Below the pieces are notes generated by a model. It worked only from the letters and a program-made list of their open reading frames with translations, ran no database searches and had not been told where the DNA came from. DNA of 64,000 bases from assembly GCF_024494685.1 (NCBI RefSeq), contig NZ_JANHDM010000011.1, positions 1 through 64,000 on the forward strand, written 5' to 3'. Source of the DNA: Halorubrum rubrum (lineage in GTDB: Archaea > Halobacteriota > Halobacteria > Halobacteriales > Haloferacaceae). The position numbers and the translations under genes are program-made. Of this stretch, positions 25,828 to 28,530 are shown piece by piece (the stretch's first letter is position 1; each line of letters starts with the position of its first letter).

Positions 25828-27315
25828 ATGAGCACACGGGCCGCGAGCGAGGAGCGGGCGGTCGTGATCGGGCTGGAGGTCCACGTCCAGCTCGAGACCG
25901 ACACCAAGGTCTTCTGTGGCTGTTCGACGGAGCCGGCCGACGACGAGGAGCCGAACACGCGAACCTGCCCGACCTGTCTCGGGCTGCCGGGCGCGCTACC
26001 GGTCCTCAACGAGGCCGCCGTCGAGAGCGCGGTGAAGATCGGGAAGGCGCTCGACGCCGACATCCCCGAGACGACCACGTTCCACCGGAAGAACTACTAC
26101 TACCCCGACCTGCCGAAGAACTTCCAGCTCACCCAGTACGACGCGCCGATCTGCGCGGACGGCGAACTGGAGGTGTCCGTCGACGGCGAGCGCCGCACCA
26201 TCGGGATCACCCGCGCGCACCTCGAGGAGGACCCCGGAAGCATCCAGCACGCGGGCGGCTCCATCGAGTCGGCGACCCACACGCTCGTGAACTACAACCG
26301 CGCCGGGACGCCGCTGATGGAGGTCGTCACCGAGCCCGACTTCCGGTCGCCGGCGGAGACCCGCGCGTTCCTCGCGAAGCTCGAGGAGGTGCTGGAGTAC
26401 CTCGGCGTCTTCGACGCGACGCGGGACGGCAGCCTCCGGATCGACGCCAACGTCTCGCTCGTCGACGCCGACGAGGTACGAGCGGACGGCTCCGTCCCCG
26501 AGTCGGTCCTCGCCGACGCCAACCGCGCCGAGGTGAAGAACATCTCGAGTCACAAGGGCGCGGAGCGGGCGCTCGCCTACGAGATCACCCGCCAGCGCAA
26601 CGTCCTCCGCCGCGGCCGCGAGATCGAACAGGAGACCCGCCACTGGGACGAGGCGCGCGGCGTCACCGTCTCGATGCGGTCGAAGGAGGCCGAGAAGGAC
26701 TACCGCTACTTCCGGGAGGCCGACCTGCCCGCGCTGGAGGTGGCCGACTGGAAGGAGTCGATTCCGATCCCCGAGCTGCCCGACGCCCGCCGCGAGCGCT
26801 TCCGCGACGAGTACGGGCTCGACGCCGAGGCCGCCTCGAAGCTGACCTCCACGAAGGAGGTCGCGGACTTCTTCGAGGACGTCGCCGGCGAGTACGACCC
26901 CGACCTCGCGGCGACGTGGGTTGCGGACAACCTGCTCGGCGAGCTCAACTACCGCGAGCTGGAGATCACCGACGTGGCCGGCCGGCTCGACGAGTTCAAA
27001 CGCCTGATCGAGCTGGTCGCCGCCGAGGAGCTGACGGTGAAGAACGCCGAGGAGGTCGTCCTCCGCGAGATGCTCGACGAGGGCGACGACCCCGACGCCG
27101 TGATCGAGCGCGAGGGGCTCGGGAAGGCCGAGGCCGGCGAGGTCGAGCGCGCGGTCGAGTCCGCCATCGACGACAACCCCGAGGCGGTCGCCGACTACCA
27201 CGACGGCGACGAGGGCGCGATCAACTTCCTCGTCGGTCAGGTGATGCAGGCGACCGGCGGCAGCGCCGACCCCGGCCAGGTGAACGGGCTGCTGCGCGAG
27301 CAGCTGGACGGCTAG
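25828..27315 (+). CDS. gatB: Asp-tRNA(Asn)/Glu-tRNA(Gln) amidotransferase subunit B
   Basis: This 495-residue GatB amidates misacylated Asp-tRNA(Asn), and Glu-tRNA(Gln) if used that way, together with GatA and GatC encoded elsewhere. Family features include Gly-Leu-Glu-Val-His-Val-Gln-Leu near residue 14, zinc-type cysteines Cys-x-Cys (Cys30, Cys32) and Cys-x2-Cys (Cys47, Cys50), and the C-terminal YqeY-like tRNA-binding domain (about 350-495). It leads an operon with the SAMP2 and acetyltransferase genes; SAMP2 begins 4 bases after its stop. Confidence 0.95.
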   Translation: MSTRAASEERAVVIGLEVHVQLETDTKVFCGCSTEPADDEEPNTRTCPTCLGLPGALPVLNEAAVESAVKIGKALDADIPETTTFHRKNYYYPDLPKNFQLTQYDAPICADGELEVSVDGERRTIGITRAHLEEDPGSIQHAGGSIESATHTLVNYNRAGTPLMEVVTEPDFRSPAETRAFLAKLEEVLEYLGVFDATRDGSLRIDANVSLVDADEVRADGSVPESVLADANRAEVKNISSHKGAERALAYEITRQRNVLRRGREIEQETRHWDEARGVTVSMRSKEAEKDYRYFREADLPALEVADWKESIPIPELPDARRERFRDEYGLDAEAASKLTSTKEVADFFEDVAGEYDPDLAATWVADNLLGELNYRELEITDVAGRLDEFKRLIELVAAEELTVKNAEEVVLREMLDEGDDPDAVIEREGLGKAEAGEVERAVESAIDDNPEAVADYHDGDEGAINFLVGQVMQATGGSADPGQVNGLLREQLDG

Positions 27316-27319
27316 TCGC

Positions 27320-27553
27320 ATGGACGTGACCGTCGACGTCGTCGGCGGCGACACGGAGACGTACGGCGTCGACGACGACGCGACCTACGCCGACCTGATA
27401 CGCGCCGCGGGCTTTCACCCACAGGAGGCGTCCGTCCTCGTCGACGGCTCGCCCGTCCCCGGCGACCGCCCGGTCGACGCCGACCGAGTGCGGCTGCTCC
27501 GGCTGATCCAGGGTGGGTCGAACGCTGCCCGAAACCGGCGGGTGGGCCCGTGA
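27320..27553 (+). CDS. samp2: Ubiquitin-like small archaeal modifier protein SAMP2 with C-terminal tail
   Basis: This 77-residue beta-grasp protein is used as a sulfur carrier for tRNA 2-thiolation and as a protein modifier in haloarchaea. Residues 1-66 match SAMP2 and end Arg-Leu-Ile-Gln-Gly65-Gly66, but eleven more residues follow (67-77, Ser-Asn-Ala ... Gly-Pro). The family normally ends at the di-glycine, which must be C-terminal for adenylation. The codon after Gly-Gly is TCG, one substitution from the stop TAG. The protein contains no lysine; the residue matching the chain-forming Lys58 of Haloferax SAMP2 is Arg58. The stop overlaps the GTG of the next gene (GTGA). Processing by a JAMM-type peptidase, or loss of function, are alternatives. 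Confidence 0.85.
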   Translation: MDVTVDVVGGDTETYGVDDDATYADLIRAAGFHPQEASVLVDGSPVPGDRPVDADRVRLLRLIQGGSNAARNRRVGP

Positions 27554-28056
27554 CGGCCCCTGAGGACCGCGTGAACGGCGACCGCGACCCCGCGGACTCC
27601 GGGGACCGCGGCCCGCTCCCCGAGGGGATCGCGATCGAGTCGGCGACCCCCGCCGACCGGCTCGACGTCCTCCGCGTGCTCGACGCCGCGATGCTCGAGA
27701 CCGACGCCGACGACATCGCCGCCCGGATCGACGCCGGCGACGTGCTCGTCGCCCGCTTCGAGCGGACCGGGTCCGTCGTCGGAGCGCTGGTCGCGACCCG
27801 CCCGGAGCCGGCGGTCCGCCACGTCGACGCGGTCGCCGTCCGGCGCGCGCGACGCGGCCGAGGGATCGGGTCCGCGCTCGTCTCGCGCGCGGTCCGGGAC
27901 GCACGGTCGAGCCCCGGCGTCGACGCGATCACCGCGGCCTTCGATTCGGGTCTGACGCCGTTTTACGCGGACCTCGGGTTCTCGATCGAGTCGGCCGGGA
28001 ACGGCCGGTCCGGTGGGCGGCGGACGGTCGGATCCGCGGAGCCGGACGGCGCGTGA
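27550..28056 (+). CDS. GNAT-family N-acetyltransferase
   Basis: This 168-residue GNAT acyltransferase starts with GTG in a GTGA overlap with the SAMP2 stop. The acetyl-CoA-binding motif A is clear: Val-Ala-Val-x-x-x-x-Arg-Gly-Arg-Gly-Ile-Gly-Ser-Ala-Leu at about 97-113. The first 30 residues are charged and probably disordered. Coupling to SAMP2 raises the question of shared function, but the substrate is unknown. Confidence 0.8.
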   Translation: MTAPEDRVNGDRDPADSGDRGPLPEGIAIESATPADRLDVLRVLDAAMLETDADDIAARIDAGDVLVARFERTGSVVGALVATRPEPAVRHVDAVAVRRARRGRGIGSALVSRAVRDARSSPGVDAITAAFDSGLTPFYADLGFSIESAGNGRSGGRRTVGSAEPDGA

Positions 28057-28104
28057 GGTCCCGTTCCAGAGACGTTTTATCCCCGACCTGAGTTGGCGAT
28101 CCAC

Positions 28105-28530
28105 ATGGACCGCCCCCGACTCGAGACGGACGCCGACGCTGGACTGCTCCTCCGGCGCGGGGGCGCGCTGGTCGCCGACGCGCTGCTCGTCGCGACGCTG
28201 TTCGGCCTCGTTTCGATCGCGTTTCGACTCCTCGCCGGATCCCTCCCTTCCGCAGGGCGCTGGCTCCTCCCGGTCGCGTACCTCGGCTACTACGTCGCCT
28301 TCGAGGGAACGTTCGGGCGAACGCCCGGAAAGCGACTTCTCGGGCTCGTCGTCCTCGAGGCCGACGGGTCGCCGTGCGGGCCCCGGTCGGCGCTCGTCCG
28401 GAACCCGCTCCGGGTCGTCGACGGCGCGGTCTTCTACCTCGTCGGGCTCGCCGTCGTCGTCCTCACGGACGAGGACCGACGCGTCGGCGACCACGTCGCG
28501 GGGACGCGGGTCGTCCGGGCCGGCGAGTAG
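28105..28530 (+). CDS. RDD-family membrane protein
   Basis: This 141-residue protein has three or four hydrophobic segments and RDD-domain features: an Arg near the start of helix 1 with Asp in it (Arg-Arg-Gly-Gly-Ala-Leu-Val-Ala-Asp-Ala), Gly-Arg-Thr-Pro-Gly-Lys in the loop near 72, and a terminal Arg-Arg-Val-Gly-Asp-His. Function of the family is largely unknown; some members take part in ion or osmolyte transport. A TATA box (ttttat, 28075-28080) lies 27 bases before this ATG, so I start here rather than at the TTG at 28093. Confidence 0.78.
   Translation: MDRPRLETDADAGLLLRRGGALVADALLVATLFGLVSIAFRLLAGSLPSAGRWLLPVAYLGYYVAFEGTFGRTPGKRLLGLVVLEADGSPCGPRSALVRNPLRVVDGAVFYLVGLAVVVLTDEDRRVGDHVAGTRVVRAGE

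Follow-up and report, generated by a model that had tools for sequence, protein, structure and literature searches.

The locus studied here raises a simple question: how could SAMP2, a model archaeal ubiquitin-like protein that has so far been described as Gly-Gly-ended, be put to use when its gene carries on past the Gly-Gly? The gene lies in a stretch of 64,000 nucleotides of the Halorubrum rubrum genome (positions 1 to 64,000 of contig NZ_JANHDM010000011.1; hereafter, the window), in which the following features were delineated:

27320..27553, + strand: predicted SAMP2 precursor gene, with ATG at 27320 and 77 aa plus the stop TGA at 27551-27553
27320..27517, + strand: beta-grasp SAMP2 body, residues 1-66, ending Gly65-Gly66, with predicted cleavage after Gly66
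27518..27550, + strand: C-terminal tail SNAARNRRVGP, 11 residues, a predicted propeptide
27550..28056, + strand: downstream GNAT acetyltransferase gene, 168 aa, GTG start (Acetyltransf_1, 5e-11)
25828..27315, + strand: upstream ORF, given for context, which by sequence recognition, with no family search, we take to be gatB (Asp/Glu-tRNA amidotransferase subunit B)

The gene at 27320-27553 encodes a true SAMP2. Its body scored 102.9 bits against the NCBIfam SAMP2 model NF041919 (positions 1-66; cut-off 70) and 99.1 bits against the Pfam SAMP2 model PF21965. It shares family and fold with H. volcanii SAMP2 (HVO_0202); its residues 1-67 match the solved structure of that protein, 2l32, with 4hrs matched too. 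The translation and the model scores bear out an initial reading of the window, made from the sequence only, which had described a SAMP2 with Gly65-Gly66 followed by 11 further residues; likewise, the stop indeed overlaps the next gene, the bases GTGA being common to the SAMP2 stop and the GTG start (27550) of the GNAT gene. The Gly-Gly terminates the beta-grasp body but not the encoded protein. AlphaFold2 modeling of all 77 residues of the precursor gave a pLDDT of about 90 for residues 1-60 and below 50 for residues 65-69, which predicts a well-ordered body followed by a flexible Gly-Gly/tail region. A second, normal SAMP2 gene elsewhere, an alternative named by the sequence-only reading, was not found in a whole-genome search of this 98%-complete genome (next best match, E=0.17), which encodes one ThiF/E1 homologue and two JAMM proteins. 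A search for RNA elements at the SAMP2/GNAT junction gave no Rfam match within 27000-28200.

The sequence-only reading had regarded the tail as a departure from normal SAMP2 proteins, suggested a lost stop (TCG from TAG) as its origin, named a sequencing error at TCG as a possible refutation, and proposed examining related Halorubrum genomes for its conservation. A SAMP2 match was found in 49 of 52 congeneric genomes, and all 49 carry a tail. A recent stop loss is thereby ruled out, and the tail, far from being peculiar to this genome, is a trait of the genus, ancestral to Halorubrum. A sequencing error is very unlikely, because Halorubrum cibi DSM 19504 and H. aquaticum (L035, L038) open their tails with the same two codons as H. 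rubrum, TCG-AAC (Ser-Asn); the shared codons speak equally against a recently lost TAG. The tails of the genus range from 2 to 25 residues, with differing end points, and some are lengthened by short repeats (L023, L029). Those of equal length are 48% identical, compared to 86% for the bodies (157 same-genus pairs), which points to a fast-evolving tail. In two genomes of the genus, the SAMP2 reading frame continues into the downstream acetyltransferase (GNAT) gene, giving fusion proteins of 236 residues (Halorubrum sp. 48-1-W, G033) and 221 residues (G029).

Reading 264 SAMP2 genes through their 3' ends, across the family of H. rubrum and the wider order, we found residues beyond Gly-Gly in 106 of them, with 29 genera represented overall, indicating that an encoded C-terminal Gly-Gly is no family-defining rule for SAMP2. 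The Gly-Gly itself is intact in 264/264, fusions included, with no decay at this site in any of the sequences examined. These observations bear on the possibility that loss of the stop codon left a SAMP2 that is not activated, and is either impaired or on its way out. An untrimmed tail would block the C-terminal glycine of a single-copy protein, as such a scenario requires; however, tails that are genus-wide and occur in 29 genera, behind a body and a Gly-Gly that are conserved throughout, even in fusions, make it highly improbable. Thus, of the two outcomes initially envisaged, namely that a protease trims the tail or that function is impaired, impairment is unsupported, whereas the protease alternative gains support.

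The fusions are particularly informative in this regard, as 20 genomes encode SAMP2 solely as a fusion, with GNAT or AhpC/TSA behind the Gly-Gly. SAMP2-GNAT fusions were found at loci L009, L010, L128-L136, L152 and L291, including 10/10 genomes read of genus g18, and one f13 genome carries a GNAT-like partner. Fusions to an AhpC/TSA redoxin occur in 3/3 genomes of genus g17 and in the one genome read from each of g15 and g28, and two g44 genomes, of another family, carry a redoxin-like partner; Pfam confirmed both kinds of partner in the examples tested. By locus, the AhpC/TSA-type fusions are L213 and L223 in family f17, and L071, L123 and L125-L127 in H. rubrum's own family. Their presence in two separate taxonomic families suggests repeated fusion to the same partner. 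In the fused cases there is a single SAMP2 per genome, and therefore free SAMP2 in these 20 genomes would need a cut inside the chain.

Alternatively, the tail or fused enzyme might stay attached and have a function of its own, for example as an acetyltransferase or peroxiredoxin tethered to SAMP2, which would serve as a binding domain. That both partner families recur as fusions in at least two taxonomic families is compatible with such a role, yet the short tails diverge quickly in length and sequence, and a permanently attached partner would make keeping the Gly-Gly unnecessary and leave the dependence on JAMM1 described below unexplained. We therefore give this explanation very little credence. 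Removal of the tail is in keeping with its composition: 83% of tails begin with Ala, Ser, Thr or Gly, and for the related CsRpn11, bulky or acidic residues near the cut site are known to block cleavage. A small first residue would fit selection for cuttable tails, though composition and shared ancestry could explain part of the pattern.

A candidate protease is encoded in the same genome as the tailed SAMP2:

contig C24:134901-135335: JAMM1 metalloprotease (desampylase), NF041370 148.9 bits (cut-off 130)

Its active site, E..HSHP..S..D, is complete, with E30, H101, H103, S111 and D114 invariant among 20 homologues. The predicted structure (mean pLDDT 88) matches P. furiosus JAMM1 (5ld9, 5lda), which has also been solved with SAMP2 (5lda). 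H. rubrum thus possesses a JAMM desampylase whose active-site residues are intact.

We compared the distribution of JAMM1 with that of the tails, taking JAMM status from a PF14464 search that covered the whole family and sampled the order evenly; for most genomes, a JAMM1-positive status means passing an E-value threshold in this search. JAMM1-type proteins scored 54-321 bits against a JAMM1 query and no more than 19 against a JAMM2 query, with the reverse for JAMM2-type proteins, so that by sequence the two separate cleanly. Outside the family, genomes with and without JAMM1 were picked by genus before their SAMP2 3' ends were seen, and all 127 were read: tails were present in 18/75 JAMM1-bearing and 0/52 JAMM1-less genomes. 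With the family included, the counts were 105/198 and 0/65, respectively. Removing two genomes with damaged JAMM1 left 105/198 vs 0/63 (Fisher 1.3e-17, a value to be read with the phylogenetic non-independence of the genomes counted). With genera as units, tails were found in 29/72 with JAMM1 and 0/29 without it (p=6.6e-6; p = 0.004 when only tails of at least 5 residues were considered), and a family-stratified exact test gave p=3.3e-4. A Pagel-type two-trait model yielded a likelihood ratio of 47 and a tail-gain rate of 0 without JAMM1, on a SAMP2 tree that is short and weakly supported; a phylogenetic pair test on this tree had few supported branches and hence few contrasts. Confirming the JAMM1 assignments, the curated desampylase model NF041370, the one that marks H. 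volcanii, placed none of 61 tested JAMM1-less genomes over its cut-off, while 18/18 tailed genomes outside the family and H. rubrum itself (G000) passed it. Conversely, 93/198 JAMM1-bearing genomes have no tail, so that JAMM1 is permissive for tails rather than predictive of them.

Three genomes were dropped from the conservative statistics. One of these, G129, has a fused SAMP2 and no detectable JAMM1, and is just 79% complete. In G084, JAMM1 (L298) lacks its N-terminal half, including the region of the catalytic glutamate, and looks like a decaying gene; the SAMP2 of this genome stops at Gly-Gly. In G308, JAMM1 is split into two parts that apparently lie in different frames (G308:C22:8151-8464), and the split may reflect a draft frameshift or a pseudogene.

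Could another protease, such as JAMM2, the proteasome or a carboxypeptidase, trim the tail, with JAMM1 correlating for other reasons? JAMM2 is also carried by nearly all Halorubrum genomes, and that JAMM1 is the tail protease of H. rubrum is something we infer. However, JAMM2 is kept in JAMM1-less genomes, none of which is tailed, and evidently does not suffice to support tails, and we do not favor it for this role. A general peptidase would likewise exist in JAMM1-less genomes, and HvJAMM1 alone accounts for the cleavage of a SAMP1 fusion in vivo (PMC4443979). We thus regard trimming by another protease as improbable.

Since tails occur only in species keeping JAMM1, we consider it very probable that SAMP2 is made as a precursor that is matured by a JAMM1 cut after Gly-Gly. 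By this mechanism, the precursor would be inactive and the residues beyond Gly66 a disposable propeptide. Its removal by JAMM1 would expose the Gly-Gly carboxylate, which the single E1 (UbaA-type) could then adenylate for conjugation and sulfur transfer. In genomes with JAMM1, the stop codon would be free to drift away from Gly-Gly, giving rise to tails (1-25 residues in such genomes) or in-frame fusions to the neighboring gene. Where JAMM1 is lost, SAMP2 would have to end exactly at Gly-Gly, and JAMM1-less genomes could therefore not afford a tail. There are two precedents for such a cut: HvJAMM1 cleaves linear SAMP1-MoaE exactly after Gly-Gly, with jamm1 required in vivo (PMC4443979), and CsJAMM cleaves the SAMP precursors of Candidatus Caldiarchaeum subterraneum (PMC6043591). 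From these precedents and the co-occurrence we infer the cleavage, its enzyme in H. rubrum and the need for it. Together with the tails, fusions, Gly-Gly conservation and JAMM1 co-occurrence that we observed, they make maturation of SAMP2 by JAMM1 a strong prediction.

A more tentative idea, which we deem rather unlikely, is that the fusions are polyproteins of SAMP2 and a lysine acetyltransferase or peroxiredoxin, from which the JAMM1 cut would free the modifier and its partner enzyme at a 1:1 ratio, thereby acting as a regulated switch that couples sampylation to acetylation or to redox stress. If so, the conserved role of JAMM1 would be ubiquitin-like protein maturation as well as desampylation.

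JAMM-cut precursors are already known for other ubiquitin-like proteins; new to the literature that we searched, which leaves out most subscription journals, are the SAMP2 tails and fusions and their dependence on JAMM1, for neither of which an earlier report was found. Csub_C0702 and Csub_C1603 of C. subterraneum are likewise JAMM-processed SAMP-type precursors (PMC6043591), but that system belongs to a distant archaeon, was studied with purified proteins in vitro and involved no link between tails and JAMM1 across genomes. In SAMP1-MoaE and other Ubl-MoaE fusions, the same protease family separates a ubiquitin-like protein from an enzyme by cutting after Gly-Gly; there, the modifier is of the MoaD branch, the fusion tested was engineered and natural archaeal fusions were reported only in Crenarchaeota (PMC4443979), whereas the fusions found here are natural and join SAMP2, of the ThiS branch, to GNAT or AhpC/TSA. 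Eukaryotic ubiquitin precursors (ubiquitin-ribosomal protein fusions and tailed ubiquitin), as well as CsUb-pre with CsRpn11, also combine an inactive precursor, a disposable part and a cut after Gly-Gly, in another ubiquitin-like lineage than that of SAMP2. The eukaryotic precursors are processed mostly by cysteine-protease deubiquitinases.

H. rubrum SAMP2 has, as had been noted initially, no lysine in its 77 residues, with Arg at position 58 and Gln at 64, whereas its H. volcanii counterpart carries both Lys58 and Lys64 and has no residues beyond Gly-Gly. The absence of Lys58 stood as a sequence observation, but not as a peculiarity: Lys58 is found in just 52/264 haloarchaeal SAMP2 proteins and Lys64 in 214/264. 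Lysine-free bodies number 37/264, many of them without tails (e.g., in genus g13). Accordingly, Lys58 does not define the family, and the absence of lysine is ordinary variation that is separate from the tail. Lysine-free (K58R/K64R) SAMP2 of H. volcanii still conjugates and loses its chains on NcsA (PMC4048286). It follows from this result and from the lysine-free sequence that chains through SAMP2 lysines should be impossible for the H. rubrum protein, in agreement with the initial reading, and such chains are no conserved feature of the family.

Maturation by JAMM1 would give SAMP2 a ubiquitin-like maturation step with a predicted enzyme. Whether JAMM1 is needed for making SAMP2, besides removing it, can now be tested in culturable haloarchaea, with the natural SAMP2-GNAT and SAMP2-AhpC/TSA fusions as ready-made substrates and the repeated losses of JAMM1 as natural knockouts. 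Of practical relevance, annotation and assays that assume a C-terminal Gly-Gly can miss the gene models of tailed species.

Two further loci of the H. rubrum genome are of note. L164 (G000:C22:89793-90053, - strand) encodes a MoaD-branch SAMP (NF041918, 100 bits) whose ubiquitin-like domain ends VAGG and is followed by an acidic linker and a second domain ending RAGG-stop. It is possibly a second ubiquitin-like precursor of H. rubrum, whose fusion partner could be the TBP-like GG protein (arCOG06308) listed beside MoaD-like genes in PMC2948915. L168 (G000:C19:163852-164118, - strand) gives a ThiS-like match, and its frame ends FCC-stop, resembling the halobacterial CC-ending ubiquitin-like family arCOG00539 (PMC2948915).
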